64,000 nt of DNA from Actinophytocola gossypii (GTDB lineage Bacteria; Actinomycetota; Actinomycetes; Mycobacteriales; Pseudonocardiaceae). The position numbers were made by a program, and so were the translations under genes. This document shows, piece after piece, positions 26,868 through 44,255 of this stretch; the first letter of the stretch is position 1; every line of letters starts with the position of its first letter. The stretch covers positions 124,001-188,000 of the forward strand of contig NZ_JAFFZE010000012.1 of NCBI RefSeq assembly GCF_025165815.1. The letters run 5' to 3'. The notes under the pieces are model-generated. The model searched no databases and was not told the origin of the DNA. It saw only the letters and a program-made list of their open reading frames with translations.

Positions 26868-26897
26868 TTGACCGGTGCCGGTTCGAGTCGCGAGGAT
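26868..26897 (+). promoter_or_regulatory. Promoter of the kinase-aldolase-lacI operon
   Basis: TTGACC (26868-26873) and GAGGAT (26892-26897) are 18 bp apart. The palindromic operator begins 2 bp after the -10 box and covers the transcript start, as expected for repression. Confidence 0.55.
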
Positions 26898-26899
26898 GA

Positions 26900-26917
26900 T
26901 GTGGCAACGTTGCCACA
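26900..26917. promoter_or_regulatory. LacI-type operator, site 1
   Basis: TGTGGCAACGTTGCCACA is a perfect 18-bp palindrome with the central CG typical of LacI-family sites. The same 18 bp recur at 44238-44255, and two degenerate copies lie at 40723-40756. It overlaps the predicted transcript start of the kinase operon, which encodes a LacI protein. Confidence 0.8.
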
Positions 26918-26941
26918 CCGGTGTCGGAGGGGGTCGGGCGC

Positions 26942-28300
26942 GTGGCGGAGCGGCTCGCCGGGATCGACGTGGGGACGACCAACTGCAAGGTCGGCCTCTA
27001 CACGCCCGACGGCACCGCGCTGGCCGAACGCGGCCGCCCCACCCCGCCGGACGCCGACGACCTGGTCGCCGGGGTGCTCGCCGACCTGGCCGGCTGCGTC
27101 GCCGAGGCCGGGCCGCCGGACGCGATCGGGGTCACCGGCGTCGCCGAGGGCGGCGTTCCGCTCGGCGCCGACCTGCGGCCGCTGCGACCCCTGCTGTGGT
27201 GGTGGGACGACCGCGCCGCCGAGCAGGCCCGCTGGCTCGCCGGCGACGTCGGCCGGGCCGCGATCTTCACCAGGACCGGCGTCGACGTCGCCGCGAAGAC
27301 CCCGCTGGCGACCTGGCTGTGGCTGCGCCGCGACGACCCGGCCTGCCTGGACCGGATGCGGGCGTGGGTCGGCGTCCCCGAGCTGGTCGCGACCGCGCTG
27401 TGCGGCGATCCGCTCGGGCACCGCACCCTGGCCGGCCGGTCCGGCGCGTTCGACCAGCGCGCCGACCGGTGGGACCAGGACCTGCTGGCACTCGCCGGCG
27501 TCGACCAGGAGCGGCTGCCGTCGGAGAGCACCGGCCGCACGACGGACGGGGTCCCGGTCGTGGTCGCCGGCCACGACCACCTGGTCGCCGCGCACGCGGC
27601 CGGCGTCCGCGCGCCGGGGGCGGTGGCGGACTCGCTGGGCACCGCGGAGGCCGTGGTCACCGTGTCCGACCGGGCGCCGGGGCCGGACGCTGCCGGCACC
27701 GGGATGTCCTGGAACCGCACCGCCGACGGCCGGCACTGGGCCATGGTGTCCGGCTTCCCGCACGCCGGCCGGCTCGTCGACTGGCTGTGCACCCTGGCCG
27801 GCGGCGACCACGCCCACGTCGACGCGCTGGCCGCGACCGTGGACCGTCCGACCGGTGTCGTCGTGCTTCCCTACCTCGCCGGCCGGGCCGCGCCGGCGCC
27901 CGACCCGGACCTGCGGCTGTCCGTGCACGACCTCGCCTCGCGACACGCCCTGCCCGACGTCCTGGTCGCCGTGCTGGAGGGCGCGTGCTGCCACGCCCGC
28001 TGGATGGCCGAGGCACAGGCCGGGCACGCCGGCACGAAGCTCGGTCGGGTCACCGTCCTCGGCGGCCCCAGCCGGGGGCGGGTGCTGATGGAGGTCAAGG
28101 CGCACGTGTTGCCCGGCCCGGTCCGGCTGGTGCGTGCCGCCGACGCGGCCCGTACCGGCGCGGCGCTGCTCGCCGGACACGCGATCGGCCTCGACACCCC
28201 AACGCTCGGTAGCGACGAGCTGCCCCGCGACGACGTTCTCGCCGACCGGTACGACACGATGTACCGGGACTTCCTGTCCCGGGTTCAGGAGGAGACATGA
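26942..28300 (+). CDS. FGGY-family carbohydrate kinase
   Basis: 452 residues from GTG 26942, with GGAGGGGG upstream. LAGIDVGTTNCKVGLY is the N-terminal phosphate-binding motif; the family core continues with WWWDDRAAEQA, VVAGHDHLVAAHAAG and VTVLGGPSRGRVLM near the ATP site. FGGY kinases phosphorylate ketoses, polyols or related sugars. It opens the operon with an aldolase (4-bp overlap) and a LacI regulator, so its product is probably the aldolase substrate or a direct precursor. It is slightly shorter than the usual 480-520 residues. Control is by the operator at 26900-26917. Confidence 0.88.
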   Translation: MAERLAGIDVGTTNCKVGLYTPDGTALAERGRPTPPDADDLVAGVLADLAGCVAEAGPPDAIGVTGVAEGGVPLGADLRPLRPLLWWWDDRAAEQARWLAGDVGRAAIFTRTGVDVAAKTPLATWLWLRRDDPACLDRMRAWVGVPELVATALCGDPLGHRTLAGRSGAFDQRADRWDQDLLALAGVDQERLPSESTGRTTDGVPVVVAGHDHLVAAHAAGVRAPGAVADSLGTAEAVVTVSDRAPGPDAAGTGMSWNRTADGRHWAMVSGFPHAGRLVDWLCTLAGGDHAHVDALAATVDRPTGVVVLPYLAGRAAPAPDPDLRLSVHDLASRHALPDVLVAVLEGACCHARWMAEAQAGHAGTKLGRVTVLGGPSRGRVLMEVKAHVLPGPVRLVRAADAARTGAALLAGHAIGLDTPTLGSDELPRDDVLADRYDTMYRDFLSRVQEET

Positions 28301-29157
28301 CCCTGGCCTCGTTGGCTTCCCTGGCCCGGCCGTCCGGTGGGCTCGCCATGGTGGCGATGGACCAGCGGGAGAGCCTGCGCGGGATGCTCGCCGAGCACAC
28401 CGACGGGCCGGTGACCGACGCCGACCTGGTGCGGTTCAAGCTGGCCGTGGCCGCCGAGCTCGGCCCGCACGCCAGCGGGTTCCTGATCGACCGCGAGTAC
28501 GGCTTCGAGCAGGTGGCGGACCTCGGCCTGCCGTGCGGGCTCATCCTCGCCGCCGACGCGCTGACCCACCCGCCGGAGGGCGGCCCGGTGGTGCGCACCG
28601 CGATCGACGACGCCGTCGACCCGGCGGCGGCCGCGGCGCGTGGCGCGCACGCGTTGAAGCTCCTGCTGATCTGGCGCCCGGACGAGCGCGACGCGTGCCT
28701 GGCGCTGGCCGAGGACTTCATCCGGCGGTGTGCCGGCGCCGGACTGGTGTCGGTGCTGGAGGGCGTGGTCCGGCCAGGGCCCGGTGACGACTTCGACGCC
28801 CTGCTGCTGGAGGCGGCCGCCGAGCTGGGCGCGCTCCGCCCGTCGCTCTACAAAGGACAGGTGCCGCGGTTCGGCAAGGGCGACCAGGTGGCGATCGGGC
28901 GGGTGTGCGAGCGGATGACGGCCGCGCTGCCGGTGCCGTGGGTGGTGCTGTCGCAGGGTGTGTCGATCGCCGACTTCCCGCCGTCGGTGCGCACGGCGTG
29001 CGCGGCCGGCGCCTCCGGTTTCCTCGCCGGCCGGGCGGTGTGGAGCGACACGCTGGCCGATCCGGTGCCGCTGCTGCGTTCCCGGTCGGTGGACCGGCTG
29101 CGCGCACTCGCCGAGGTGGTCGACGAGACCGCCCGGCCGTGGCGGGAAGCGGCCTGA
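28297..29157 (+). CDS. Class I aldolase of the YihT/LacD type
   Basis: 286 residues. The sequence follows the sulfofructose-phosphate aldolase YihT closely by eye: SGGLAMVAMDQRES at the N terminus, GFLIDREYG, HALKLLLIWRPDE, GLVSVLEGVVRP, SLYKGQVPRFGKGD with the Schiff-base lysine, VVLSQGV and AGASGFLAGRAVW. LacD-type tagatose-bisphosphate aldolases share this fold. It should split a phosphorylated ketose into dihydroxyacetone phosphate and an aldehyde. It overlaps the FGGY kinase gene by 4 bp (ATGA) and precedes the LacI gene by 5 bp. No other sulfoquinovose genes are present, so the substrate is open. Confidence 0.82.
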   Translation: MTLASLASLARPSGGLAMVAMDQRESLRGMLAEHTDGPVTDADLVRFKLAVAAELGPHASGFLIDREYGFEQVADLGLPCGLILAADALTHPPEGGPVVRTAIDDAVDPAAAAARGAHALKLLLIWRPDERDACLALAEDFIRRCAGAGLVSVLEGVVRPGPGDDFDALLLEAAAELGALRPSLYKGQVPRFGKGDQVAIGRVCERMTAALPVPWVVLSQGVSIADFPPSVRTACAAGASGFLAGRAVWSDTLADPVPLLRSRSVDRLRALAEVVDETARPWREAA

Positions 29158-29162
29158 GCCCC

Positions 29163-30200
29163 GTGTCGGAGGAGCCAACCCTCGACGAGCCGAAGCGCCG
29201 TCCGACGATCGGCGACGTGGCCAAGGCGGCCGGCGTGTCACCGTCGACGGCGTCCAGGGCGCTGACCGGCCAGGGCTACGCCGCCGCGGCGGTCAAGGCG
29301 AAGGTGCTGGCTGCCGCGGACCAGCTCGGCTACGTGCCCGACGAGTTCGCCAGAAGCCTGAAAAGGCGGACGAACCGGCTGGTCGGCGTGGTGATCTCGG
29401 ACCTGCGCAACCAGTTCTACGCCGACCTAGCGGCCGGCATCGAGCAGGTGCTCGGCGCCGCCGGCTACCAGATGGTGCTGGTCAACGACGACGGCGACAC
29501 CGACCGCGAACTGGCCGGCGTCCGCACGCTGCTGGCGATGCGGGTACCCGGCACGATCGTCACCCCGCTGTCGTCGGAAGCAGGCGCGCTGCTGACGTCC
29601 CAGGGCGTGCGGGTCGTCGAGGTGGACCGCCAGATGGCCGAGAGCCAGTGCGACGCCGTGCTGGTGGACTCCGAGCACGGCGCGCGGGCGGCGACCGGTC
29701 ACCTGCTGGAGCTGGGCCACCGCCGCATCGCGTTCCTGATCGACGAACTGGAGTGGACCACGGGTGTGGGTCGCCTGACCGGCTACCGCGAGGCCCTGCG
29801 CGAGCGAGGTGTCGACTACGACCCCGAGCTGGTGGTCCGCGTCGGCTTCGGCGAGGGCAGCGCGGCCACAGCGATCGCGTCCCTGCTGGAGGTCCGCCCG
29901 GACGTGACCGCGGTGTTCGCCGCGAACAACCTGATGGCCGAGGGCGTGTGGCAGGAGATGCAACGCCGGAAGCTGCGGGTGCCGAAGGACGTCTCCCTGG
30001 TGGCCTTCGACGACCTCCCGTGGATGAGCATGGTGCAGCCGGCCGTGAGCGCGGTCTCCCAACCGGTGGTGGCGATGGGCGCCAAGGCCGCGGAGCTGCT
30101 CCTGGCCCGCCTGTCCGGCACCCTCACCGGCGACCCCCGCACCGTCTGGCTCGAACCCACCTTCGAACGCCGAGGCTCCACCCGCCGGCTACCGGGCTGA
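29163..30200 (+). CDS. LacI-family transcriptional regulator
   Basis: 345 residues from GTG 29163. The N-terminal helix-turn-helix reads PTIGDVAKAAGVSPSTASRAL in outline, with a hinge helix (EFARSLKRRTNRLVGVVI) and a periplasmic-binding-protein-like sensor domain (about 65-340: NDDGDTDRELAG, EVDRQMAE, AANNLMAEGVW, AFDDLPWMSMVQP). It is the last gene of the kinase operon. Four copies of a LacI-type palindrome lie within 18 kb, before its own operon, the binding-protein gene and the ten-gene minus-strand operon, so it most likely represses all three and is released by the sugar or a phosphorylated intermediate. Confidence 0.92.
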   Translation: MSEEPTLDEPKRRPTIGDVAKAAGVSPSTASRALTGQGYAAAAVKAKVLAAADQLGYVPDEFARSLKRRTNRLVGVVISDLRNQFYADLAAGIEQVLGAAGYQMVLVNDDGDTDRELAGVRTLLAMRVPGTIVTPLSSEAGALLTSQGVRVVEVDRQMAESQCDAVLVDSEHGARAATGHLLELGHRRIAFLIDELEWTTGVGRLTGYREALRERGVDYDPELVVRVGFGEGSAATAIASLLEVRPDVTAVFAANNLMAEGVWQEMQRRKLRVPKDVSLVAFDDLPWMSMVQPAVSAVSQPVVAMGAKAAELLLARLSGTLTGDPRTVWLEPTFERRGSTRRLPG

Positions 30201-30224: not shown

Positions 30225-30241
30225 ACCCGCCGGACGCGGGT
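30225..30241. terminator. Short hairpin between convergent operons
   Basis: ACCCGC-CGGAC-GCGGGT lies between the lacI stop (30200) and the FAD oxidoreductase stop, whose codon starts at 30241. It could end both transcripts, though the stem is only 6 bp. Confidence 0.4.
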
Positions 30242-31728
30242 CAGATCGTGAGGATCTGGCGTTCGTCGAGGAGGTGTTGTTGGAGGTCGGCGACGTCGAC
30301 CTGTTGGACGGGTCGGTCTGTGGTGAGGGCGCGCCAGGCGGCGAGGCCGGCGGCGTGGCCGAGCATCTCGTACTGGGGTTCCATGCGGACCGAGCTGAAG
30401 GCCACGTGGGACGCGGACAGGCAGACCGGGACCAGCAGGTTCGTGCAGTCGGCGTAGCGGGGCACGATCGCGCGGTACGGGACCTGGTACGGGCGCACCG
30501 GCACGGACAGGTAGCCCTCGTTGTACACCGACGGGATCGGGTCGGGGTGTTCGTACACCCAGCGCCACGTGCGGCGTACCTCGCGGATGTCGATGTGGTA
30601 CGAGCCCATGGCGATCGTGTCGTACTTGGGGGTGGGGGCGGTGTGCAGGTCGTGTTCGGTGAGGGTGTACTCGCCGAGCATCCGCCGGGCCTCGCGCACG
30701 TACAGCTGGTGCGGGAGGCCGCCGTCGAACTCGTCCGCGGCCCAGCCCCATTCGCCGAGACGGTCGCGGACCTGGCGGGGCACGGCGGGGTCGGTGCTCA
30801 TGAAGTGCAGGAAGTCGACCGTGTACTCCTGGTACCGGCGGACGATCGCCGCCCGCTCGGCGGGGCCGGCGTCGGGGTAGGCGCGGTTGGCGCCGTCGAG
30901 CAGGTTCACCGACAGCGGGCCGATGGAGTTGCCGTCGCACTTGCCGTTGGGGAGGTTGCGGACCAGGCCGAGCACGTCCGGCGGCTCCAGGTCGCGCTCG
31001 GCGAGCATCGCGAAGTACCGGCGGGCCAGCTCCCACTCCTCCTCGCGGTAGCCGTCGCGGCGGGTGAACGGGAGCCGGTCGTCCGCTGTGGACAGACAGA
31101 CCCGGTAGCCGTACGCCATCACGGCGCCGTCGCCCTCGCCCGCGTCGACGGTGGGTGAGGAGTCGATCAGGGGGAGCAGCGAGCCGTCGGCGGCGAACGG
31201 GGACAGGTACGGCTCGAAGTTGTGCTTGCCGGGCGCCCATTCCCGCCGGCCGGCGAACGTCTCGCCGTGCAGGGAACGGCTCTCCCGGCCGACGCGGTAC
31301 GGCACGCCGGCGGCGGCGAGCAGGTCGCCCTCGTAGGACGCGTCGACGTACACGCCCGCGCGGTACGACCGGCCGTCGGTGCCGTGCAGTACGGAGATCG
31401 ATCCCTCCACGGCGGACACGCCGACGCCGAACACGACCGCCACGCCGGCACGGTCCAGCCACGACTCGAAGATCCGCTCCGCCACGTGCGGCTCCGGGCC
31501 GGCGTAGCGGGACGTGCCGTAGTGCTCCGCGACGGCGGCGGCGAACTCCCCCGCCATGCCGCCGAGGACCCTCGGGTCGCCGATGTCGGTGTAGCCGAGC
31601 CCGCCGGAGACCATCCCGCCGACGTGCCGGCCCGGTTCGAGCAGCGTCACCGGCACCCCGTGCCGCGCGGCCGCGACCGCGGCGCACACCCCGGCCGCCG
31701 TCGCGCCGTAGACCACCAGCTCAGCCAA
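30241..31728 (-). CDS. FAD-dependent oxidoreductase (FAD_oxidored family)
   Basis: 495 residues from TTG 31728, which has GAGG six bases upstream and overlaps the previous gene by 8 bp. The N-terminal dinucleotide fold is AELVVYGATAAGVCAAVAAARHG, followed by GGMVSGGLGYTD and YVDASYEGDLLAAAGV, signatures of the FAD_oxidored family found in carbohydrate loci. The C terminus has LLVPVCLSASHVAFSSVRMEPQ, typical of the flavin-binding end. There is no signal peptide. It is the last gene of the ten-gene minus-strand sugar operon and probably oxidises a sugar or sugar acid; the substrate is not predictable. Confidence 0.82.
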   Translation of the reverse strand: MAELVVYGATAAGVCAAVAAARHGVPVTLLEPGRHVGGMVSGGLGYTDIGDPRVLGGMAGEFAAAVAEHYGTSRYAGPEPHVAERIFESWLDRAGVAVVFGVGVSAVEGSISVLHGTDGRSYRAGVYVDASYEGDLLAAAGVPYRVGRESRSLHGETFAGRREWAPGKHNFEPYLSPFAADGSLLPLIDSSPTVDAGEGDGAVMAYGYRVCLSTADDRLPFTRRDGYREEEWELARRYFAMLAERDLEPPDVLGLVRNLPNGKCDGNSIGPLSVNLLDGANRAYPDAGPAERAAIVRRYQEYTVDFLHFMSTDPAVPRQVRDRLGEWGWAADEFDGGLPHQLYVREARRMLGEYTLTEHDLHTAPTPKYDTIAMGSYHIDIREVRRTWRWVYEHPDPIPSVYNEGYLSVPVRPYQVPYRAIVPRYADCTNLLVPVCLSASHVAFSSVRMEPQYEMLGHAAGLAAWRALTTDRPVQQVDVADLQQHLLDERQILTI

Positions 31729-33544
31729 GGCGCGCCTCGCAGGCCAGCAGCAGCACGCCGACACACCACGCGTGGGACAGCGTCAACAGCATTCCCTTCG
31801 GTTGGTAGCACGCGGTCTGGTAGAAGCGTTCGCTCACCATTCCCCGGTACGCGTTGAAGTCGCCGTCCGCGCGGGCCACGAACTGGCGGAAGCAGGCCAG
31901 GTTCTCCTCGGCCGACGCGGTGTAGTACGTCTCGCCGGTGTGCTCGCCGAGCCGGGCCAGCTCGGCGGCGCAGATCAGGCCGTAGGAGTGCAGGTGCTGG
32001 TTCGCCGGCGACGCCTGGTCCGCGCCTCGGCTGCGGAAGTCGTAGTGGCCCAACAGGGTGTGCGGCGGGAAGTCGACGTCGTAGGTGTAGCGGAACGTCA
32101 GCGTCCAGTCGGCCGCGCGCCGGGCCAGCGCCAGCCACTCGTCCGCGCCGTCGGCCTCGTACAGCGACACGTACGCCATGATCGCCAGGTAACCGTCCTC
32201 GGACGACGGTGCCAGGTCCACGTCCTCGGGTGCGCCGTACAGGAACTCCCGCTCCACCGCGCCCGCGTAGAAGCGGCCGGCCCGCCGGGCGGCGTCGAGG
32301 TAGCGCGGCTCGTCGAACAGGGCGGCGGCCTCGACCAGTGCCGGGATCCACGCCAGGCCGCTGGTGCCGTTCCGGTCCAGCACCTCGCCGGTCGCCACGT
32401 CGTAGCCGGCGCCGAACGAGCCGTCGGCGGCCTGGCCCTTGACCGCGACGTCCAGGTTGGACACCACCGCGGCGCGCCACTGCGGCGGGCCGCCGAGGGC
32501 GACCGCTCGGGTGAGGAACAGGGTGGCCTCGCCGAGGGTCCTGGCGTGCACGCGCCGCCGGTCCGGGGTCCAGCCGGCGTTCCAGCCGTTCGCGCGGGTC
32601 CACTGGCCCCAGAACGTGCCGCCTGGGGTGAGGTGGTTGGCGATGTTGTCCAGCACGGCGGTCGCGGCGTCCACATAGGAGTCGTTGCCGACCCGTCTGC
32701 CGTGCCGCAGCAGGGCGTAGGCGTACGGGACGCCGCTGATCCACGACACGTGCATGGCCTGCCGGTCGCCGTGCTCCCCCAGCGCGTGCCGGTCGAACGC
32801 GGCGGTCTCCAGCAGCACCGCGTCCTCGGCGACGTAGTGCCACCGGTACAGGCCCCACGCGGTGAGCGCGGCCGCATCCTCGACCGAAACCCACGGCACG
32901 GTGTCGGCGTCCACCGGCGCGGTCCGGCGGTGCAGGTCACACAGCACCCCGGCGTAGGCGTGCCGGTCGGGGCCGAGCACGTGCAGGTCGAACCGCAGCG
33001 TCTCGGTCCGGCCCGGGTACCACTCGAACGCGGGGGTGTCGGCCGGCAGCGGGTTCGGCGAGCCGTCGTAGACCACCGGCTCCTCGCGGTACGGGAAGTG
33101 CAGGCGCAGCACCGGGTGCTCGCCGTCCATCGCGAGCCCGACGCCGGCCTGGCCGAGCGGCGACCACTCGGTGGTGACCAGCGCCGCGCCGCCCTCGCGG
33201 TCCCAGGCGAACACCGCGGGCGTGGCGCAGCGGTCGGCGCGCAACCCCCACTCGGCGGACTCCAGCAGCGCCGGGTCGGGTGCGTCGCGGGTGAACCTCG
33301 GGTACCGCACCCGGCACCCGGCGACCCGGTTCTCGCCGTAGAAGGCGCCCGGCACGAGCCAGCCGGGGTCGTCGGTCTCGCCGAGGCGCACCGACACCCG
33401 CAGGCCGGCGACCACCGGCTCGGACGCGACACAGGTGACGTCGAGCCGGACGGCGAACCGCGAGCCATCGACGTCGCACACCGTGCGGTCGACCGACAGG
33501 GCGTCCGGCCGCGCGGAGAGGACCGTGACGTCGAACGGAATCAC
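31721..33544 (-). CDS. Six-hairpin (alpha/alpha)6 glycosidase-like protein
   Basis: 607 residues from GTG 33544, which overlaps the alpha-mannosidase stop as GTGA (a GTG at 33553 is also possible). The N-terminal third is beta-rich; from about 210 the chain has helical repeats with aromatic acidic motifs (WGLYRWHYVAEDAV, MHVSWISGVPYAYALLRHG, WGQWTRANGWNAGW, RNGTSGLAWIPALVEA, SSEDGYLAIMAY), as in six-hairpin glycosidases. I cannot assign a numbered GH family. It is cytosolic and surrounded by sugar genes, so it probably hydrolyses or lyses an imported oligosaccharide. Confidence 0.7.
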   Translation of the reverse strand: MIPFDVTVLSARPDALSVDRTVCDVDGSRFAVRLDVTCVASEPVVAGLRVSVRLGETDDPGWLVPGAFYGENRVAGCRVRYPRFTRDAPDPALLESAEWGLRADRCATPAVFAWDREGGAALVTTEWSPLGQAGVGLAMDGEHPVLRLHFPYREEPVVYDGSPNPLPADTPAFEWYPGRTETLRFDLHVLGPDRHAYAGVLCDLHRRTAPVDADTVPWVSVEDAAALTAWGLYRWHYVAEDAVLLETAAFDRHALGEHGDRQAMHVSWISGVPYAYALLRHGRRVGNDSYVDAATAVLDNIANHLTPGGTFWGQWTRANGWNAGWTPDRRRVHARTLGEATLFLTRAVALGGPPQWRAAVVSNLDVAVKGQAADGSFGAGYDVATGEVLDRNGTSGLAWIPALVEAAALFDEPRYLDAARRAGRFYAGAVEREFLYGAPEDVDLAPSSEDGYLAIMAYVSLYEADGADEWLALARRAADWTLTFRYTYDVDFPPHTLLGHYDFRSRGADQASPANQHLHSYGLICAAELARLGEHTGETYYTASAEENLACFRQFVARADGDFNAYRGMVSERFYQTACYQPKGMLLTLSHAWCVGVLLLACEARLG

Positions 33545-35973
33545 GGGAGCCACTCGATCAGGTCGGTCTCCACCACCGGCTGGTCGTGGTCGCGGGGCAC
33601 CAGGAACGTCTTGATCTCGGCCGGCCCGAAGGTCGCGGTGACCGTGCGGCCGAGCACCTCGACGGTCGCCTCGCCGCCCCGGCCCGCGGTCTCGTAGGCG
33701 CGGACCACGAGCGCGTCGGCGCCCTCGGCGTCCTCGGCGGCCTTGAGCACCGTCGGCAGCACCGACGCCCCGGACACCGCCATGAACGACCGCACCGCCG
33801 GCAGGTCACCGTCGTGGTAGGACTCCAGCAGCGGGAACGCGGGCTGGTTCAGCTCGGCCGCGCACCGCACCACGGCGGCGTCGCGCCAGTCGCCGGCGTG
33901 CGGCACCAGGCGGCAGGTGAACTCCTGGCGGCCCTGGTCCTGGTAGACGTACAGCTCGTCGTCGTCCAGTTCCTTCGGCTCGTGCCAGGCGTACACCGGG
34001 CTGCGCGCGGCGGTGACGCCGATGTCGCCGCCGAGCACGTCGTGGCCGTACTTGCCGTCGTTGAGCACCGCGAGCCCGGCGCGCCGGCCGTCCGGCAGCT
34101 CGCCGGACACGTCGACCCAGGCCTGCGCGGCCTCCTCGCTGCCGTTCGCCGGGCGCTCCACGTGCCCGTACGGGATCTCGAACGTGGCCCGCACGTCGGA
34201 CAGCGCCGTGGGGAACCGCAGCTTGAGCAGCTTCCGCCGCTCCTGCCAGTCCAGCGTCACCCGTACCTCGACGTGCCGGTCCCGTACGCCGAGCACGTAC
34301 TCCTCGGTCAGTGTCGACGCCCCGTACCCGCTGGTCACGCGCAACACCGCCCGCACGGGGCCGTGCTCCACCAGCCGCACCGAGCGCGGGGTGAACACGC
34401 CGTCGACGGAGTCGTAGGCCCGCACCCGGTGCCCCCAGGTGTCGGACTGGTCGTCGATGACGACGGCGTGCCCGCCCGGGGCGGCGACGTCCACGCCGGA
34501 GACCTTGTCACGCAGGGAACGCAGCCAGCCGGTCGCCGGGTCGACCTCGAGCGCGACGAACTCGTTCTCCAGCCGGGTGTCGGTCGCGGTGACCGCCGGC
34601 GCCGGCTCGCCGTCGCCGCCGGGGTAGAGCCGGTACACCCGGTAGCCGAGCGGCGGCACGTCGGCGGCGAGCACCAGGCGGCGGCGCCAGCCGTTGACGG
34701 TGGCCTTCGAGCGGGTGCGCTGCACGGCGACCGGGTGGCCCTCGTCGTCGACCGCGCGGGTGCCGAACGCGGGGAAGCCGCCGAACTCGAACTCCACGTC
34801 GGCGACCAGCCGCCACGGGTGCGGGTTGACGACCACGAGCGGGGTCATGTCGGGCTCTGGCTCGATCGCGATGCGCCGGGTCATCGACTGCACCGCGCGG
34901 TTGAACGCCTCGACGGCCAGCGACACCGCGTGCCCGTACTGGTCGCGGGCGTCCTCGTAGGCCGGTTCGATCGCCGCGCCGCCGAGGGTGTCGTGGAACT
35001 GGTTGAACAGCACCAGCTTCCACGCCCGCTCCAGGTCGGCGGCCGGGTAGGGCACACCGGCGACCGAGGACGCGACGGTGGCCCACTTCTCCGCGCGGGC
35101 CAGGAGGTTCTCCGCCCGCCGGTTCCACCGCTTGACCCCGGAGTGCGCGGAGTAGCAGCCGACCGCGTGGTGCTGCAGCTCGCCCACGTGCACCGGGACG
35201 TCCTCCCCGGAGGCGACCAGCCGGTCGAAGAAGTCACGCGGGTGCCCGCAGCGCATCCGGGGCAGGCCGCCGGTGGCGTCGAGGCGGCGGATGCTGTCCA
35301 GGTTCGCCTTGGTGGGGCCGCCGCCGTGGTTGCCGACGCCGTAGAACACCATCAGCTCGCGCGCGTCGGCGGGCAGCTGCGCGAGCGACTTGTCGACCTG
35401 GTAGCCGAGGTCGGCGCCGGAACTGCAGTACTCGTGCGGGATCCGGTAGGTCAGCACCCGCGACCCGTCCGGTGACTCCCACCAGAAGTACGGGCCGGGA
35501 AGCGCCATCTCGTGCGGGCCGGGACGCATGAAGACGTAGGCGTCCATTCCGGACCCGCGCAGCAGCTGCGGCAGGGAGGCGTTGTGCCCGAACGGGTCCA
35601 CGTTGCACCCGACGGTGCAGGTGACGCCGAACCGGTCCTTGAGGTAGCGCTGCGCGTAGAGGGCCTGCCGCACGAACGACTCCCCCGACGGCAGGTTGCA
35701 GTCCGGCTCGATCCACCAGCCGCCGACCACCTGCCAGCGCCCCTCGGCGATCCGTTTGCCGATCTCGGCGAACAGGTCCGGGTCGTGCTCCTCGACCCAG
35801 GCCAGGTACAGCACGGAGTCGCAGGTGAACACGAACTCCGGGTACTCGGTCATCCGGTCGATGGCGGAGGCGAAGGTGGCGCGGACCTCCTGGTAGCCCT
35901 CCGGCCACTGCCACAGCCAGACGGGGTCGATGTGCGCGTTCCCGATCATGTGCAGTAGACGCTGGTCGGACAC
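33541..35973 (-). CDS. GH38 alpha-mannosidase
   Basis: 810 residues from GTG 35973 (GGGAGA upstream). The catalytic domain shows NAHIDPVWLWQWPEG with two zinc ligands, NVDPFGHNASLPQLL with the nucleophile Asp, and NQFHDTLGGAAIEPAYEDA completing the zinc site. The C-terminal half is beta-sandwich (VALEVDPATGWLRSLRDKVSG). Family members remove alpha-linked mannose with retention. There is no signal peptide, so it works on imported mannosides. The stop overlaps the six-hairpin glycosidase start. It suggests that the regulon handles an alpha-mannoside or a mannose-like sugar. Confidence 0.9.
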   Translation of the reverse strand: MSDQRLLHMIGNAHIDPVWLWQWPEGYQEVRATFASAIDRMTEYPEFVFTCDSVLYLAWVEEHDPDLFAEIGKRIAEGRWQVVGGWWIEPDCNLPSGESFVRQALYAQRYLKDRFGVTCTVGCNVDPFGHNASLPQLLRGSGMDAYVFMRPGPHEMALPGPYFWWESPDGSRVLTYRIPHEYCSSGADLGYQVDKSLAQLPADARELMVFYGVGNHGGGPTKANLDSIRRLDATGGLPRMRCGHPRDFFDRLVASGEDVPVHVGELQHHAVGCYSAHSGVKRWNRRAENLLARAEKWATVASSVAGVPYPAADLERAWKLVLFNQFHDTLGGAAIEPAYEDARDQYGHAVSLAVEAFNRAVQSMTRRIAIEPEPDMTPLVVVNPHPWRLVADVEFEFGGFPAFGTRAVDDEGHPVAVQRTRSKATVNGWRRRLVLAADVPPLGYRVYRLYPGGDGEPAPAVTATDTRLENEFVALEVDPATGWLRSLRDKVSGVDVAAPGGHAVVIDDQSDTWGHRVRAYDSVDGVFTPRSVRLVEHGPVRAVLRVTSGYGASTLTEEYVLGVRDRHVEVRVTLDWQERRKLLKLRFPTALSDVRATFEIPYGHVERPANGSEEAAQAWVDVSGELPDGRRAGLAVLNDGKYGHDVLGGDIGVTAARSPVYAWHEPKELDDDELYVYQDQGRQEFTCRLVPHAGDWRDAAVVRCAAELNQPAFPLLESYHDGDLPAVRSFMAVSGASVLPTVLKAAEDAEGADALVVRAYETAGRGGEATVEVLGRTVTATFGPAEIKTFLVPRDHDQPVVETDLIEWLP

Positions 35974-35981
35974 TGGTCTCC

Positions 35982-36548
35982 CTAGTCGTCGCCCGCTGCC
36001 CACGCGTCGACCCGCTCGGAGAGCAGGTGCAGGAGCAGCAGGTGCATTTCCTGGATCCGTGCGGTCTCGGTCGAGTCGACCACCAGCGCGTGGTCGGCGT
36101 GCGCGGCGGCCGGACCACCGCCCGAGCCTCCGAAGTAGACGGTAGTCGCCCCCTGCCGGCGGGCCGCCGCCAGCCCGCGCACCACGTTCGGCGATCGGCC
36201 GCTGGTGGAGAACGCGGCCACCATGTCACCCGGCCGCACGAACCCGACCACCTGCCTGGCGAACACGTCCTCGTAGGCGAAGTCGTTGGCGATGCAGGTG
36301 AGCACCGACGGGTCCACGGTCAGGGCCACCGCCGGCAGCGGCCGCCGGGTGCGCTTGTACCGGCCGATCAGCTCGCCGGCCAGGTGCTGCGCGTCCGCCG
36401 CGCTGCCGCCGTTGCCGAACGTGAACAGCCGCCCGTCCGCCTCGTACACCTCGATCAGCCGGTCCGCCACCTTGTCCAGCTCCGGCAGCAGTTCCCGCAC
36501 GCGCTCGGCCACCCCGATGTGGTCGGCCAGTTGGTCGGCCAAGCTCAT
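35982..36548 (-). CDS. SIS-domain isomerase, GmhA-like
   Basis: 188 residues. FTFGNGGSAADAQHLAGELIGRY, LTVDPSVLTCIANDF, FSTSGRSPNVV and QEMHLLLLHLLSERVD match sedoheptulose-7-phosphate isomerases (GmhA), including metal-site residues. No other heptose-pathway gene is near, so a catabolic aldose/ketose phosphate isomerase role is more likely than lipopolysaccharide-type heptose synthesis. The start overlaps the ROK kinase stop as ATGA, linking the two steps. The mannosidase gene starts 8 bp beyond its stop. Confidence 0.85.
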   Translation of the reverse strand: MSLADQLADHIGVAERVRELLPELDKVADRLIEVYEADGRLFTFGNGGSAADAQHLAGELIGRYKRTRRPLPAVALTVDPSVLTCIANDFAYEDVFARQVVGFVRPGDMVAAFSTSGRSPNVVRGLAAARRQGATTVYFGGSGGGPAAAHADHALVVDSTETARIQEMHLLLLHLLSERVDAWAAGDD

Positions 36549-37495: not shown

Positions 37496-38388
37496 CCCTT
37501 GCGTCCCTGGGTCGCGATGCCGTAGAGGAAGTGGCGCTGGGCCAGGAAGAACACGACCACCATCGGCAGCGTCGTGATCACGCTGCCGGCCAGGACGATC
37601 TCCCACTGCTGCTCACCGGACTGGCCGAACTGGTCGGAGATCGCCTTCAGCCCGCGCGGCAGCGTGTACAGCTCCTCGTCGCGCAGGTAGATCAGCGGCT
37701 TGAGCAGGTCCGACCAGCTGGCCTTCAGCTCGAACACGAACGTCACGATCATCGCCGGCTTGCACAGCGGCACCGCGATCCGCCAGAACAGCCCCCAGTA
37801 GCTCGCGCCGTCGATCCTGGCGGCCTCGAACAGGTCCCGCGGCAGGCCCAGGAAGAACTGGCGCAGCAGGAAGATGTAGAACGCACTGCCGAACAGGTTC
37901 GCCGCCCACAGCGGCACCTGCGTGGTGGACAGCCCGACGCTGTTCCAGATCAGGTACACCGGGATCATCGTGACCGCGCCCGGCAGCATCATCGTCGCCA
38001 GCACCAGGCCGAACAGGAAGTTCCGCCCGGGGAACCGGAAGTAGGCGAAGCCGAACGCGACCAGCGCGCTGGCGATCGTCACCGCGGTCGCCGCCGCGAC
38101 GGCCACCACGACGCTGTTCAGGAACCACTGGAGGACCGGCGCCGCCTGCCAGACGTTGACGTAGTTCTCCCACGCCCACTGGCTCGGCAGCAGCGCGTTG
38201 TCGAACACCTGAGAGCGCGGTTTGAGCGACGCGCTGAGCACCCAGAAGAACGGGTACAGGAACAGCACGGACGCGCCGAGCAGCCCGATCCAGAACAGCA
38301 CCCGGCTCTTGCGGCCGCGCCGGGGCCGCACCGGCTGGGCCGGCGGCGTCCTCGGCGTTTCGGGCGGTGCGACGGTCGGAGCGGCCAT
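37492..38388 (-). CDS. Sugar ABC transporter permease (MalG/CUT1 type)
   Basis: 298 residues with six predicted membrane segments and the EAA loop FEAARIDGASYWGLFWRI near 195. It forms the inner-membrane channel with the permease encoded just upstream (TGATG overlap) and takes substrate from the lipoprotein two genes upstream. No ATPase gene is in the operon, as is usual in actinomycete CUT1 systems, where a shared MsiK-type ATPase serves several importers. The stop overlaps the ROK kinase start by 4 bp. Confidence 0.9.
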   Translation of the reverse strand: MAAPTVAPPETPRTPPAQPVRPRRGRKSRVLFWIGLLGASVLFLYPFFWVLSASLKPRSQVFDNALLPSQWAWENYVNVWQAAPVLQWFLNSVVVAVAAATAVTIASALVAFGFAYFRFPGRNFLFGLVLATMMLPGAVTMIPVYLIWNSVGLSTTQVPLWAANLFGSAFYIFLLRQFFLGLPRDLFEAARIDGASYWGLFWRIAVPLCKPAMIVTFVFELKASWSDLLKPLIYLRDEELYTLPRGLKAISDQFGQSGEQQWEIVLAGSVITTLPMVVVFFLAQRHFLYGIATQGRKG

Positions 38389-39332
38389 CAGCGGTCACCG
38401 CCCTCGTAGTAGACGAACCGTTTGCTCACCTTCACCTGGATCGCCGTGATGATCATGATGATGACGAACAGCAGCCACGCCATCGCCGACGCGTAGCCCA
38501 TGTGCAGGAACTGGAACGCCTGCTGGAACAGGTAGATCAGGTAGAACAGGGCGGCTTCGCTGGAGTAGCTCGCCGACGCCGCGCTGCCGTAGAAGGCGGC
38601 GTAGGCCTCGTCGAAGGTCTGCAGCGCGCTGATCGTCTGGATGATCAGGGTGAAGAACAGCGCGCCGCTGATCATCGGCACGGTGACGTGCCGGAACCGC
38701 TGCCAGCGCGACACGCCGTCCAGGTCGGCCGCCTCGTACAGGTCCCTCGGCACGTTGTTCAGCGCGGCCAGGTAGATCACCACGGTTCCGCCGACCGACC
38801 ACAGGTTCATCAGCACCAGGCCGGGTTTCACCCACGCCTCGTCGGTGCTCCACTGCGGCCCGTCGATGCCGACCAGCCCGAGCGCCCAGTTGACCATGCC
38901 GACCTGGCCGTTGAACAGCAGCAGGAACAGCACGCCGATCGCGACCTTCGGGGTCACCTCGGGCAGGTAGAACAGCGTGCGGAACACACCGGCCGAGCGC
39001 CGGCCGATCCGGGAGAGCATCGAGGCGAGCGCGAGCGACACGATCATCGTGCTCGGCACGATCATCACCGCGTAGATCAGCGTGTTGCTGAGGCTCTTGC
39101 GGACCTTCGGGTCGGACAGCAGCTTCTCGTAGTTGTCCCAGCCGACGCCCCTGGTCTCCTGCAGGCCGTCGTAGTTGGTGAACGACAGCACCAGGCTGAT
39201 GATCATCGGCCCGGCGGTGAGCACCAGGAACCCGATGATCCACGGCGACAGGAACGCGAACGCCGCCAGGGTCTCCCGTCGCTGATTCTTCCCGCGCGGC
39301 CGGCGCTTCCTCTGGCGGGTGGCCGTGCTCAT
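38388..39332 (-). CDS. Sugar ABC transporter permease (MalF/CUT1 type)
   Basis: 314 residues: a basic N terminus (TRQRKRRPRGKNQRRE), six membrane segments and the EAA loop LYEAADLDGVSRWQRF. It pairs with the MalG-type permease that follows and overlaps it by one base. It begins 4 bp after the stop of the binding-protein gene, so the three transport genes are one unit. Confidence 0.9.
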   Translation of the reverse strand: MSTATRQRKRRPRGKNQRRETLAAFAFLSPWIIGFLVLTAGPMIISLVLSFTNYDGLQETRGVGWDNYEKLLSDPKVRKSLSNTLIYAVMIVPSTMIVSLALASMLSRIGRRSAGVFRTLFYLPEVTPKVAIGVLFLLLFNGQVGMVNWALGLVGIDGPQWSTDEAWVKPGLVLMNLWSVGGTVVIYLAALNNVPRDLYEAADLDGVSRWQRFRHVTVPMISGALFFTLIIQTISALQTFDEAYAAFYGSAASASYSSEAALFYLIYLFQQAFQFLHMGYASAMAWLLFVIIMIITAIQVKVSKRFVYYEGGDR

Positions 39333-39336: not shown

Positions 39337-40689
39337 TCAGTTCCCCGCGGCCGCGTTGTCCAGCGCGGTCTGCGCCTCCTGCTGGGCCTGGGCCATCGCG
39401 TCCGCCGGCGACTGCTGGCCGGACAGCACCCGGTTCACCGCGCCCTCCCAGGCGGCCTTGAACTCCGATCCGGCCGGCGAGGCCGGCATCGAGAACGCGG
39501 ACTCCTGCGCCTCCAGCACGCCGTTGACCGCGTCCTCGTAGACGGGGGTGTCGCTCAGGTCGACGATCTCACCGAAGATCTTCTCGTCCGCCACCTCGTT
39601 GCCGGTGTAGACGCCGGTGAACGCCAGCCCCTCGGCCTCGCGCTTCTCCGCCCGCGCCTCGGCGGCGGCGATCCACGAGTCCGCGTCGGACATCGTCTTG
39701 ATCCACTGGCAGGCCAGGTCCTTGTTCTTGCCGCCGGCCGGGACCGCCCACGCACTGCCGGTGACCCAGTCGATCGGGTCGCCGTTCTGGTCGGTGAACG
39801 GCTTCACGGTGAGCTTCAGGTCCGGGGAGACCTCGCCGAGCACGTTGAGGTACCAGTCCTCCATCGGGAACGCGGCCAGCTGGTCGGTGGCGAACTGGTT
39901 CTTCTCGCCGAAGAAGTCGAACGAGTCGCGGAACGCCTTGAACGAGCCCCAGCCGCCCTGCGCGTCGATCATGCCCACCGCGTACTCCAGCACCGCGACC
40001 AGCTTCGGATCGTCCAGGTTGGCCGTCTTGCCGTCGGCGCTGATCATGTCCACGCCGTTGGCCTTCGCCCACATCGGCAGGAACTCCGGGATCTTCGGGT
40101 CGAAGCCGATGCGCGCGAGGTCGGCGCCGTTGCGCTTGGTCAGCTTGGTGGTCGCCGCGGCCAGGCCGTCGCGGTCGGACGGGTCGAGGTCGTCCGCGGT
40201 CAGGCCGGCGCTCGCCACCGCGTCGTCGTTGATCATCATGACGCGGTTGTTGTAGAACTCCGGGAGCCCGTAGAGCTTGCCGTCGAGCGTGACCTCCTCG
40301 AGCGCGGGGTCGCGGTACTGGTCGAGGTTGATCTGCTCCTTCTCGACGCAGCTGTCCAGCGGCTCGATGGTGCCGCGGGCGGCGTAGGTGCCGAGCAGCT
40401 GGCGGTCGATGAAGATCAGGTCCGGGGCGGTGCCGGAGGCCACCGCGGACAGGAACTGCTGCGCGTCGAAGGCGTTGCCGCCGATCTTGACCGTGCTCGG
40501 CGCGATCGCCTCGTTGGCCAGGTCGACGCGCACCGAGGCGATCTCGTCGTCGACACCGAAGCCGAGGGTGGTCAGGGTGACGGCCTCGCCTTCGGTTGGC
40601 TGGTCGTCCCCGCCGACCCCGCCGCAGCCGGACAGGACGAGCAGGCCGATCGCGGCCACGGCCACGGTGCGTGCGTAACGAGTGGACAT
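39337..40689 (-). CDS. Sugar-binding lipoprotein of an ABC importer
   Basis: 450 residues. The lipoprotein signal is short and clear (RTVAVAAIGLLVLSGCGG, Cys about 20). The mature part is a cluster-1-type solute-binding protein (LTTLGFGVDDEIASVR, FIDRQLLGTYAARG, SAWAVPAGGKNKDLACQW). ATG 40689 has GGAGGAA seven bases upstream. The gene is preceded by a double LacI-type operator (40723-40756), so it may have its own regulated promoter within the operon. The ligand is unknown; oligosaccharides are usual. Confidence 0.9.
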   Translation of the reverse strand: MSTRYARTVAVAAIGLLVLSGCGGVGGDDQPTEGEAVTLTTLGFGVDDEIASVRVDLANEAIAPSTVKIGGNAFDAQQFLSAVASGTAPDLIFIDRQLLGTYAARGTIEPLDSCVEKEQINLDQYRDPALEEVTLDGKLYGLPEFYNNRVMMINDDAVASAGLTADDLDPSDRDGLAAATTKLTKRNGADLARIGFDPKIPEFLPMWAKANGVDMISADGKTANLDDPKLVAVLEYAVGMIDAQGGWGSFKAFRDSFDFFGEKNQFATDQLAAFPMEDWYLNVLGEVSPDLKLTVKPFTDQNGDPIDWVTGSAWAVPAGGKNKDLACQWIKTMSDADSWIAAAEARAEKREAEGLAFTGVYTGNEVADEKIFGEIVDLSDTPVYEDAVNGVLEAQESAFSMPASPAGSEFKAAWEGAVNRVLSGQQSPADAMAQAQQEAQTALDNAAAGN

Positions 40690-40722: not shown

Positions 40723-40756
40723 TGTGGTAACGATCCCACATGGAATCGTTGCCACA
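40723..40756. promoter_or_regulatory. Double LacI-type operator, sites 2 and 3
   Basis: TGTGGTAACGATCCCACA (40723-40740) and CATGGAATCGTTGCCACA (40739-40756) match the perfect site at 15 and 14 of 18 positions and overlap by two bases. Together they also form an almost symmetric 34-bp element whose outer ends are TGTGGYAACGAT half-sites. It lies between the GH36-like stop (40759) and the binding-protein start. Confidence 0.75.
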
Positions 40757-40758
40757 AC

Positions 40759-42429
40759 CTAGGACGGCTCACCTGCCCCGTCAAGACCACGGCGGTAGTC
40801 GGCCCACACTCGTGACACGTCTCCGAGGTCGGCGGCGGTCAGTTCCTCGCCGCTGAGGTCGACGTGGGTGGCGTAGTACAGCGCCGGGACCCCCAACTCG
40901 GGCTGGACGGCCAGGTAGGCGGCCCACTCGGCCCGGTCGGGCAGACACCACCCGTCGGCGTCGACCGGCACGCCGGGGCACGCCGCGTGCACGACCTCGG
41001 CGCGGTAGCGCATGTGCGGCACCACCGGGCCGTCCGGGTCGACCGCGTCGAGCATGCGGATGTCGTTGAGCCGCAGCATGTCGGTGATGTCGGTGAACGC
41101 GGGGTTGGGCGTGTGGGTGACGATCAGCGCGTCCGGTTTCACCCGTTTCGCCGTGGTGTACACGAGGGCGAGCAGGTCGTGCAGGAGCGCGGCGCCCCAC
41201 TTCCGGCCGGCGTGCCGCAGGGCGGTGCCACTCGGGGTGCGGGCGAGGAAGTCGACCTTGAGCCCGTCGGCGTCGAGGTCCCCCAGCATGTGCTCGACGG
41301 CGTCGGTGACGATCCGGCGGCCGGTGGGGTGCTCGGGGTCGAGCGCGACCGGGGTGCCGTCGGGGAGCCGGACACAGGCGTCGGCGGGGGCGCCGTCGGG
41401 GTCCCAGGCCTTCCACCACAGCAGCACGCGCTGGCCGAGGGCGTGCCGGCCGGCGATCCAGCCAACCAGGTCGGGCCATTTGCGCTGGTCGGGGCGGCAG
41501 GTGGCGTAGTGCTCGGCCCACTTGTCGTCGACCACGACCGTGCCGGGGACGACGTCGTGGCGGGCGAGGTGGTCGAGGAACGCGTCGTAGTGACGCTGGG
41601 TGGCGAAGTCCTTCGTGGACCGTCCGGTGGTCAGCGACAGGTGGTGCTGGGCGCCCCAGCCGCAGAACATCGGCTCCAGCCACCACCGGTGCGGCGGCGC
41701 CGGTTCCCGGGCAAGGCTCCGGGTGAGCAGCAGGTCCCGGTGTGCGCGCAGCGCGGCGGGCGGATCGGTATGTCCGAAGTGGACGACCAGGGTCGGTGTG
41801 GTGAAGGTGCCGTCGACTTCGGTGTGACCCTCGTAGTCGAGGCGGAGGGCGAAACCGTCGGTGCCCGCGGCGTAGTGCATCGAGGTGAACGTCTGCTCCT
41901 CGACCGGCGCGGCGAGGGCGAACGACACCCAGTCGCCCTGGTCGCGCCGGCCGGCGACGCACCAGGGGGCGGGCGCGAACAGCCAGCGGCCGACGCCGGG
42001 TTCGGCGCCGTCGCCGGTGACGCCGATGACCGCGGGTTCGACGGCGGGACGGAGGACCCGGCTCGGGTGGTCGGGGTTGGGCGAGTACACCGTGCGCAGT
42101 GCCGAGCCACTGGGCAGGAACCCGTTGGGCGGGCGGTGGCCGCCGAGCAGGTGCGCGGTGAGCAGCCGGCCGGTGCCGCGGACGGTGGTGCGCAGTTCGA
42201 TCCGGTCGTCGTGCAGCTCGACGGTGGTGACCCGTTCGGTCCACTGTGAACTGACACAGCGAACCTCGATCCTACCGTCCGAACGGGACACCACGGGTTC
42301 GCCGAGGGTCTCGTCCGGCCTGGTCATCGTGTCCAAAGAGGACAAGAGGCGCAGTCGGAACCACAGGCCGTGCTCGTCGCGGATCTCGGCGGTCAGGCGG
42401 CGTTCGTCGAGGGTGAGGGTGTAGGTCAT
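40759..42429 (-). CDS. GH36/GH31-clan glycosidase-like protein
   Basis: 556 residues from ATG 42429, which overlaps the metallo-beta-lactamase stop as ATGA. An N-terminal beta-sandwich (1-230) leads to a barrel with GTVVVDDKWAEHY, GLKVDFLARTPSG (the Asp is the likely nucleophile, as in GH36) and VDADGWCLPDRAEW. The layout is that of alpha-galactosidase-like enzymes, but I cannot place it in a characterised subfamily. It is cytosolic. In the operon it probably trims an alpha-linked sugar from the imported substrate. Confidence 0.75.
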   Translation of the reverse strand: MTYTLTLDERRLTAEIRDEHGLWFRLRLLSSLDTMTRPDETLGEPVVSRSDGRIEVRCVSSQWTERVTTVELHDDRIELRTTVRGTGRLLTAHLLGGHRPPNGFLPSGSALRTVYSPNPDHPSRVLRPAVEPAVIGVTGDGAEPGVGRWLFAPAPWCVAGRRDQGDWVSFALAAPVEEQTFTSMHYAAGTDGFALRLDYEGHTEVDGTFTTPTLVVHFGHTDPPAALRAHRDLLLTRSLAREPAPPHRWWLEPMFCGWGAQHHLSLTTGRSTKDFATQRHYDAFLDHLARHDVVPGTVVVDDKWAEHYATCRPDQRKWPDLVGWIAGRHALGQRVLLWWKAWDPDGAPADACVRLPDGTPVALDPEHPTGRRIVTDAVEHMLGDLDADGLKVDFLARTPSGTALRHAGRKWGAALLHDLLALVYTTAKRVKPDALIVTHTPNPAFTDITDMLRLNDIRMLDAVDPDGPVVPHMRYRAEVVHAACPGVPVDADGWCLPDRAEWAAYLAVQPELGVPALYYATHVDLSGEELTAADLGDVSRVWADYRRGLDGAGEPS

Positions 42430-44237
42430 CGGACGTCCACCAGGGCCTCGGCGTGCTGGCCGAACCGGGTGCCGCCGACGGTGAGGTCCGCGCCGAGCCG
42501 GGCGCGGCGGCGACGCTCGTCGGTCGGGGTGACGGTGAACCCGAACGTCTCGGTGGCCCGGCCGGGTACCGAGGTCGTCGCCGTCGCGGGTTCGGCCGCC
42601 CAGCCGGCGGGGGTGACCAGCCGGACGGTGACGTCGTCGGCGTCGGCGAACGGGTTGCGTGCCTCGACCTCGACCTCGAACGGGCGGCCCGGTCTCGTAG
42701 TGGCCTGGTAGGGCCGGATCCACGCGCCGACACCCTCGGCCTCGAAGTCCACTTCGGACAAAGGAAGCAGGTCGCGGTGCAGCCTGGCCAGTTCGGCGCC
42801 CTTCTCGGTGAGCAGGTCGAGGTAGGCGTCGTCGACCAGGCGCGGCGCCCAGTGGCCGGAGATCATCAGCTCCGGCGCGAGCGTGCGGTACAGCTCGGCG
42901 CTGCGGGTGAAGTCGTCGATCCGGAACCGGTTCTTGTACTGGAGGTTCAGCACCTCGGCCCGCTCCCCCGGCCGCCAGGTGGTGGTCTGCTGGTCGCCGG
43001 TCGCCACCACCCGCCGGCCGTCCACCTCGAACGCGATGGCGACCGCGTACAGGGTGTGGCCGGGCAGCGGGTAGGTGGCCAGCTCGTACTCGTGCCAGCG
43101 GACCGGGCGACCGGCCTCGAGCACCCGGTCGACCGGGATCGGGTCGTACCAGAGGCAGGGCAGGTCGTACCGGGTCGGCACACCGAGCACGTCGGCGACG
43201 GTGCGTTCGGCCCAGACCTGAGTCCCCTCGACCTCGCGGAGCAGGTTGAACCCGGCCACGTGGTCGTCGTGGTAGTGCGTCGGCATCGCGACCTCGACCC
43301 GGTCGACCCCGAAGTCCCGGCGCAGCACCCGCAACGACGGCAACCATGGCCGGCGCGACGACCGGTCGTCCCCGGTGGGCAGGTCGACGATCATGTCGAG
43401 CCCGAAGTCGATCAGCAGCGCGTTGCCGGTGTCGGACAGCAGCACGTAGCTGGTGGCGAAACTGTGCCGGTTGCGCAGCAGGTGCGGGCTGAGTTCCTCG
43501 AACGGATGCTCCCACTGGCCGCGGGCGTCCCACGGGGAGTCCCGGCGCGAGTCGGTGAACGCCCGCAGCCGCCGCTCCAGCAGGTCGAACGCCGGCTGTG
43601 GCTCGGCGATCGGCTCCCCGTGCGAGGGCAGTACGAGGTCGGGTCCACGCTCGGCGAGGTCGTACAGCGACAAGACGGTCGCCTTGAGCCCTTCCAGCGC
43701 GGAGTAGGACCACTGGGTGGCCGCGAGCGACCAGACCTTGCCCGGGCTGTGGATCAGGTCGCCGGTGAACGCGAGCCGCCGGCCGTCGACGTCGACCAGA
43801 TAGGACACCGAGCCGAGCGTGTGCCCCGGGGTGGGGACGGTCGTGACGTCGAACCCGCCGAACCGCCGCGTCCGGTACTCGGGCACGGTTCCGGTCACCG
43901 GGACGGGTTCGAGCAGCGAGAACCGGTCCTGCCGGAGGTCGTAGTAGTTGGTGAGGACCCGGGCCTGCCAGTACTCGTCCACCCGGTCGAACAGATCACG
44001 CTCGCTGGGCGGCACCCAGATCCGCGCCCCGTGCGCGACCGCGCGCCGCAACCCCTGCACCTGGTCCCGGTGGTGGTGCGTGACGAGCACGTCCGTGACC
44101 CGGTCCGCACCGAACTCGTCCAGGTGGTCGAGCACGCCCCCGTCCCCGAAATCGACGAGCACCGCCTCCCGGTCCCGCACCAGCACGTACACGTTGCACG
44201 TGTCCCGGAACAGATACACCCCGACGGCCAGCTCCAT
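42426..44237 (-). CDS. Tandem metallo-beta-lactamase-fold protein
   Basis: 603 residues holding two MBL domains. The first (about 1-215) has THHHRDQVQG, PTPGHTLGSVS, FTGDLIH and PSHGEP; its HxHxDH motif reads H-x-H-x-D-Q, so one metal ligand is replaced. The second (about 245-470) has a complete THYHDDH, PLPGHTLYAVA, ATGDQQ and SGHWAP. A C-terminal beta domain (about 500-603) follows. MBL enzymes include lactonases and phosphodiesterases. It is the first gene of the ten-gene sugar operon. The palindromic operator directly abuts the ATG and no ribosome site is seen, so the message may be leaderless. Confidence 0.8.
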   Translation of the reverse strand: MELAVGVYLFRDTCNVYVLVRDREAVLVDFGDGGVLDHLDEFGADRVTDVLVTHHHRDQVQGLRRAVAHGARIWVPPSERDLFDRVDEYWQARVLTNYYDLRQDRFSLLEPVPVTGTVPEYRTRRFGGFDVTTVPTPGHTLGSVSYLVDVDGRRLAFTGDLIHSPGKVWSLAATQWSYSALEGLKATVLSLYDLAERGPDLVLPSHGEPIAEPQPAFDLLERRLRAFTDSRRDSPWDARGQWEHPFEELSPHLLRNRHSFATSYVLLSDTGNALLIDFGLDMIVDLPTGDDRSSRRPWLPSLRVLRRDFGVDRVEVAMPTHYHDDHVAGFNLLREVEGTQVWAERTVADVLGVPTRYDLPCLWYDPIPVDRVLEAGRPVRWHEYELATYPLPGHTLYAVAIAFEVDGRRVVATGDQQTTTWRPGERAEVLNLQYKNRFRIDDFTRSAELYRTLAPELMISGHWAPRLVDDAYLDLLTEKGAELARLHRDLLPLSEVDFEAEGVGAWIRPYQATTRPGRPFEVEVEARNPFADADDVTVRLVTPAGWAAEPATATTSVPGRATETFGFTVTPTDERRRRARLGADLTVGGTRFGQHAEALVDVR

Positions 44238-44255
44238 TGTGGCAACGTTGCCACA
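44238..44255. promoter_or_regulatory. LacI-type operator, site 4
   Basis: The same perfect palindrome as at 26900-26917, here extended to 20 bp by a flanking T and A. It touches the start codon of the tandem MBL gene, the head of the minus-strand sugar operon. Confidence 0.8.

Follow-up and report, generated by a model that had tools for sequence, protein, structure and literature searches.

A 64,000-nucleotide stretch of the Actinophytocola gossypii genome (contig NZ_JAFFZE010000012.1, positions 124,001 to 188,000; hereafter the window) contains an 18-bp palindrome, TGTGGCAACGTTGCCACA, that very probably serves as operator for the product of the lacI gene at 29163-30200, a LacI-family protein and putative local repressor of thirteen genes of carbohydrate metabolism arranged in two convergent operons. 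The original prediction had proposed that this one palindrome marks a local LacI regulon. The proposal is supported here by the genome-wide uniqueness of the sites and by the matching distribution of site and regulator in six of 297 genomes of the family, and it is further backed by ten additional genomes and by one genome, G114, that lacks both the LacI ortholog and the operator.

The sites lie where they had been predicted, and precede the kinase-aldolase-lacI operon, the ten-gene operon and the gene for the importer's sugar-binding protein:

26900..26917, operator O1, perfect 18-mer, before the kinase-aldolase-lacI operon; also before the kinase in the relatives G003 (perfect) and G004 (one mismatch)
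40723..40756, operator O2, a double degenerate site in which a 3-mismatch copy (40723-40740) overlaps a 4-mismatch copy (40739-40756), centres 16 bp apart; the double arrangement also occurs in relatives
44238..44255, operator O3, perfect 18-mer, abutting the start codon of the gene for a metallo-beta-lactamase-fold (MBL) protein

At up to three mismatches, shuffled versions of the window contained a mean of 0.01 matches to the 18-mer, and the entire genome (7,384,836 bases, 99.01% complete) contains matches at only three places, namely 26900, 40723-40756 and 44238 of the window. A motif common throughout the genome would be hard to reconcile with a local regulon, and the scan returned these three places alone; a reversed control pattern was found at one place in the 7.38-Mb genome at the same tolerance. 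The operator is an even palindrome with CG at its centre and is located 5' of its target genes. In a survey of LacI-family regulators (PMC4052901), 1173 of 1303 regulators have an even palindrome with a central CG, and approximately 90% of the LacI regulons are local.

Gene calling and Pfam searches confirmed thirteen genes in two convergent operons, three on the plus strand and ten on the minus strand. With the starts chosen, neighbouring genes overlap or are separated by at most 10 bp, with the exception of a 69-bp gap upstream of the binding-protein gene, which contains the double operator. The LacI helix-turn-helix domain (PF00356) has 34 matches in the genome, and the single match in the window lies in the first operon, as had been claimed. 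The most likely start of the kinase is the GTG at 26942, following GGAGGGGG, rather than 26868. The genes are:

26942..28300, plus strand, FGGY-family sugar kinase (PF00370, PF02782)
28297..29157, plus strand, class I DeoC/LacD-family aldolase (PF01791; closest PDB entry the sulfofructose-phosphate aldolase YihT)
29163..30200, plus strand, LacI-family regulator, the proposed repressor (PF00356 and PF13377 above cut-off; orthologs in relatives)
30241..31728, minus strand, flavin adenine dinucleotide (FAD)-dependent oxidoreductase (PF12831; no PDB sequence match)
31721..33553, minus strand, GHx, no family; fold predicted to comprise a beta domain and an (alpha/alpha)6-type toroid
33541..35973, minus strand, GH38 alpha-mannosidase (PF01074, PF09261, PF07748)
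35982..36548, minus strand, SIS-domain (GmhA-like) sugar-phosphate isomerase (PF13580)
36545..37495, minus strand, ROK-family sugar kinase (PF00480)
37492..38388, minus strand, ATP-binding cassette (ABC) importer permease 2 (PF00528)
38388..39332, minus strand, ABC importer permease 1 (PF00528)
39337..40689, minus strand, importer sugar-binding protein (no Pfam family matched; closest PDB chain 4r9f MBP1, E 2.2e-22)
40759..42429, minus strand, GHy, unmatched in Pfam; fold predicted to comprise a beta-sandwich and a TIM-type barrel, resembling GH31/GH36 enzymes
42426..44237, minus strand, tandem MBL protein (PF00753 twice), first gene of the ten-gene operon

The co-occurrence of site and regulator was assessed in the 297 family genomes, with LacI orthologs sought at E <=1e-75. 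The 18-mer is present at up to two mismatches in 11 genomes. Six of these (G000, G003, G004, G022, G062 and G095) carry a perfect site, and each of the other five has a single 2-mismatch site with 0 of 15 query genes within 1.5 kb on either side. Since 32 genomes contain the reversed control at up to two mismatches, the weight rests on the perfect sites. The LacI ortholog occurs in the same six genomes, an overlap whose probability is 1.1e-12 if the genomes are treated as independent, which, coming from three genera, they are not. GHx has matches in seven genomes, one of them weak (30% identity), and five of the six strong matches are in genomes with a perfect site; G004 has the site, LacI and most of the cluster and is missing GHx and the FAD-dependent oxidoreductase. 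The shuffles, the rarity of the motif in the genome and the distribution of sites in the family led us to reject a chance palindrome.

G114 possesses GHx and most of the cluster; the closest LacI match in this genome, at 41% identity, lies on another contig. The importer promoter has been retained (TTGACG, 17 bp, TAGATT; locus L053, 12270-12500). A site matrix, built from 12 sites of three Actinophytocola genomes alone, scores no higher than -5.1 at this promoter and no higher than 10.8 across 19 kb of the locus. G114 thus appears to be a natural control, in which cluster and promoter were retained, no LacI ortholog was found, and the operator seems to have been lost. It is very improbable that a different LacI-type protein binds the palindrome and that the lacI gene of the cluster is a passenger. 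The genome offers 34 PF00356 matches as candidates, and LacI paralogs can share similar operators; however, it is the ortholog of the cluster LacI, not the paralogs of 40-41% identity, that tracks the site in ten closely checked genomes and among the 297, and the gene stays beside the sites even where its position has changed.

A scan for GHx with one genome per species yielded 13 loci, in Actinophytocola algeriensis, Amycolatopsis, Pseudonocardia, Gandjariella, Allokutzneria, an Acidimicrobiaceae metagenome-assembled genome and seven Streptomyces; three of the loci were already in the family set (G003, G022 and G095). All ten further genomes, including the seven Streptomyces, have a LacI match at 51-57% identity, and all ten have a site scoring at least 20.8 beside lacI or before the MBL gene. 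Across 93,546 positions in six stretches that lack the core cluster, the highest scores are 19.1 and then 11.3.

Several observations weigh against a LacI regulon marked by this palindrome. The LacI search scored just seven candidates per genome, the six perfect-site genomes span three genera and are not independent of one another, and G114 is 93% complete, such that its loss of LacI could be an assembly gap. One cluster-free stretch reaches a matrix score of 19.1. In the ten further genomes the plain pattern at up to three mismatches is no commoner than the control, and the Streptomyces case therefore rests on position and matrix. Finally, strict promoter consensus scans, which covered the kinase-operon and binding-protein promoters, found nothing. 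The site scoring 19.1 is located in G001 (L054, 8997-9014), a genome without a LacI ortholog, some 420 bp upstream of an isolated aldolase-gene relative, and is perhaps a remnant or a chance match.

The arrangement of sites and regulator differs between lineages. Sites before the MBL and importer genes are common to genomes from Actinophytocola through Streptomyces, and these two sites are old. In the relatives that share them, lacI follows GHy, with the exception of Gandjariella, which showed no GHy. The three Actinophytocola genomes have lacI after the aldolase gene and a third site ahead of the kinase, an arrangement of site and kinase seen only in this genus; four Streptomyces loci have no site scoring above 0.1 within 500 bp before FGGY. 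Both the relocation of lacI and the kinase site being confined to Actinophytocola, it seems that the kinase-aldolase genes acquired the regulator together with a new site in this genus. The same distribution could be taken to mean that the true regulon is the ten-gene operon only, the kinase and aldolase belonging to a separate pathway and the kinase site serving lacI autoregulation, and several cluster genomes have neither FGGY nor aldolase in the stretches seen. We consider this unlikely: in four Streptomyces loci the cluster itself includes FGGY and aldolase, downstream of GHx, and the Actinophytocola kinase site would control all three genes of its operon regardless.

Two relatives show additional sites. 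In Streptomyces montanisoli a weak double site (L086, 10775-10808; scores 14.2 and 15.2) precedes a GH84 gene, a possible extra member of the regulon. Streptomyces sp. ODS25 (L074) has a second LacI match of 53%, with a 3-mismatch site approximately 16 kb away (G324, C24:286925), and maybe has a second copy of the system. Two genes flanking the operons in the window, at 26235-26816 and a P450 gene at 44302-45540, were rejected as members of the regulon, as neither has relatives in the related neighbourhoods compared. The former diverges from O1 and could still be affected by it; the latter belongs to a region (44302-46800) with a pair of minus-strand cytochrome P450 genes, directly upstream of the MBL operon.

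Two likely promoters accompany the operators in the window:

26868..26897, plus strand, likely kinase-operon promoter, TTGACC, 18 bp, GAGGAT (by eye and by likeness in G004)
40752..40780 (ends approximate), minus strand, likely promoter of the binding-protein gene, TTGACG, 17 bp, TAGGTT

Strict terminator scans found nothing. The spacing of promoter and operator, like the sites, their uniqueness and their conservation with LacI, can be read directly from the sequences. Sixteen importer promoters were aligned by hand on TTGAC near the operator. All 16 contain TTGAC followed by G or C, and 15 have TANNTT 17 or 18 bp beyond it, the remaining one, from Amycolatopsis, having CAGACT. The operator starts where the -10 element ends in the Pseudonocardiales, and in Streptomyces the -10 element is inside the left half of the operator. 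At the head of the ten-gene operon, O3 abuts the MBL start codon in the window and leaves no leader; in G004 start codon and operator share one base, and in G003 the start codon comes one base after the operator, an arrangement that suggests a leaderless MBL transcript in Actinophytocola. The corresponding distance is 17-22 bp in G022, G062 and G095 and 21-22 bp in Allokutzneria.

Since the sites overlap or follow a conserved promoter, repression by the blocking of RNA polymerase is likely. We infer the following scheme of binding, repression and induction, as well as the operon extents. Without sugar, LacI dimers would occupy O1, such that the regulator controls itself, and O3, where the ten-gene operon begins. 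They would also bind next to each other on O2, which lies at an internal promoter serving the importer and subsequent genes. Bound at sites overlapping or directly after promoters, they would block RNA polymerase until a sugar imported or produced by the system releases LacI.

Three glycosidases had been predicted in the cluster. GH38 is certain; the products of 31721-33553 (GHx) and 40759-42429 (GHy) are glycosidase-like by predicted fold only and match no family at threshold. We use "without family" for proteins with neither a Pfam nor an NCBIfam match at threshold and with no strong sequence match in the PDB. The GHx model, built from 14 sequences (predicted local distance difference test, pLDDT, 74), pairs a beta domain with a toroid of the (alpha/alpha)6 type. 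Its Foldseek matches are scattered over polysaccharide lyase, GH116, GH76, GH94-type and epimerase folds at 8-14% identity and a template-modelling score of at most 0.42 by query length, and its single Pfam match, GH127, is far under the cut-off (E 0.19); GHx was therefore given no family name. The GHy model (pLDDT 65; six sequences, two of them partial) combines a beta-sandwich and a barrel, and its top Foldseek matches are a galactosaminidase, MYORG and alpha-galactosidases at 11-15% identity.

The most likely role of the thirteen genes is the uptake and trimming of a hetero-oligosaccharide that contains mannose. The GH38 enzyme is closest to Ams1-type and other alpha-mannosidases, and MBP1, the closest structure to the binding protein, is a mannan-binding protein. 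Family counts in 17 genomes, which are minima since several stretches are cut, are 17 for GH38, 16 for LacI, 10 for GH1, 6 for GH84 and 4 for GH2. GH84 adjoins the MBL gene in six of the 17, and the one relatives' GH2 tested is closest to beta-mannosidases. The GH84 and GH2 families are present in relatives and absent from the window's cluster; PF07555 had no match in the A. gossypii genome, in a search whose control also matched nowhere. The GH84 of Pseudonocardia nigra (L089, ~5570-6401) matches in two frames and may be broken or misread. The combination of GH38, the importer and the relatives' GH2, GH84 and GH1 points to a mannose-containing, perhaps N-glycan-like, oligosaccharide, an N-glycan-like substrate being our leading, albeit tentative, guess. 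The ROK kinase and SIS isomerase may handle mannose; the chances are about even that the FGGY kinase and the aldolase split a second sugar as a ketose 1-phosphate. In this connection, G114 has a partial gene for a xylose-isomerase-like TIM barrel upstream of the aldolase gene, and four Streptomyces loci have a racemase-like gene, accompanied in two of them by an OtnK-type kinase.

Two other substrates were considered. The closest PDB matches of the aldolase are sulfofructose-phosphate aldolases (E 3.2e-55, ~190 bits, versus 5.4e-17 for the best LacD), GHy has a GH31/GH36-like predicted fold, and another genome of the genus, G005 (L055, 264-3518), has a sulfoglycolysis-like set consisting of a PfkB kinase, an aldolase relative of 51-53% and a below-cutoff fucose-isomerase-like protein. 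Degradation of sulfoquinovose or another sulfosugar is nevertheless quite improbable, because the partner enzymes are not among the thirteen genes: a search of these for Pfam families of sulfoquinovose isomerase, PfkB/PfkA kinase and sulfolactaldehyde reductase or dehydrogenase found none, and GH38 and the MBP1-like binding protein point to mannose. Mannosides derived from xanthan, or otherwise bearing uronate, are also unlikely to be the substrate in place of N-glycan-like ones. GH38, GH1 and GH2 would also fit xanthan-type side chains, and GHx has a predicted (alpha/alpha)6-type fold with a polysaccharide lyase as its top Foldseek match; yet GH84 beside the MBL gene in six of 17 genomes fits N-acetylglucosamine better, and the thirteen genes gave no match to a lyase family or to GH88. 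To return to the mannose-containing hetero-oligosaccharide, the cluster may encode an undescribed actinobacterial route, with GHx and GHy as two glycosidase families unmodelled in Pfam or NCBIfam, the FAD-dependent oxidoreductase and tandem MBL protein acting on an unusual linkage or modified residue, and the YihT-type aldolase acting on a non-sulfonated ketose 1-phosphate.

The original prediction did not recognise the gene mix from a described pathway; our literature search likewise found no description of this gene set, and we found no matching described pathway. The analysis delimits the switch and gene set for a sugar pathway with two uncharacterised glycosidase-like families, and the predicted inducible promoter is a starting point for assays. 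The retained promoter and lost operator of G114, together with the move of lacI and the new site in Actinophytocola, offer a compact case of repressor-site co-evolution.

Among known systems, the N-glycan locus of Streptococcus pneumoniae, which includes the NgtS-P1-P2 importer (PMC5215778), is alike in having GH38, a ROK protein, and a binding protein with two permeases, and its GH20 has as counterpart the N-acetylglucosamine-acting GH84 beside the cluster in some relatives. The thirteen genes differ from that locus in having no GH92, GH125, GH29 or GH85, and in the addition of the FGGY kinase, aldolase, FAD-dependent oxidoreductase, MBL protein, GHx and GHy. The sulfoglycolytic Embden-Meyerhof-Parnas pathway of sulfoquinovose (PMC9594981, PMC8873060) likewise has a YihT-family aldolase adjoining a sugar kinase; here, however, the kinase is FGGY rather than PfkB, and the cluster contains no matching isomerase and no sulfolactaldehyde enzyme. 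The local LacI-family sugar regulons of the survey, which includes ManR for mannose and mannosides, share with this system an even palindrome with central CG, sugar-gene targets, autoregulation and sites near the start codon (PMC4052901). It differs from them in having a double operator and a site that overlaps the region of a presumably leaderless start. The system is a LacI regulon of ordinary class, with an undescribed gene set and a clean joint history of regulator and operator.

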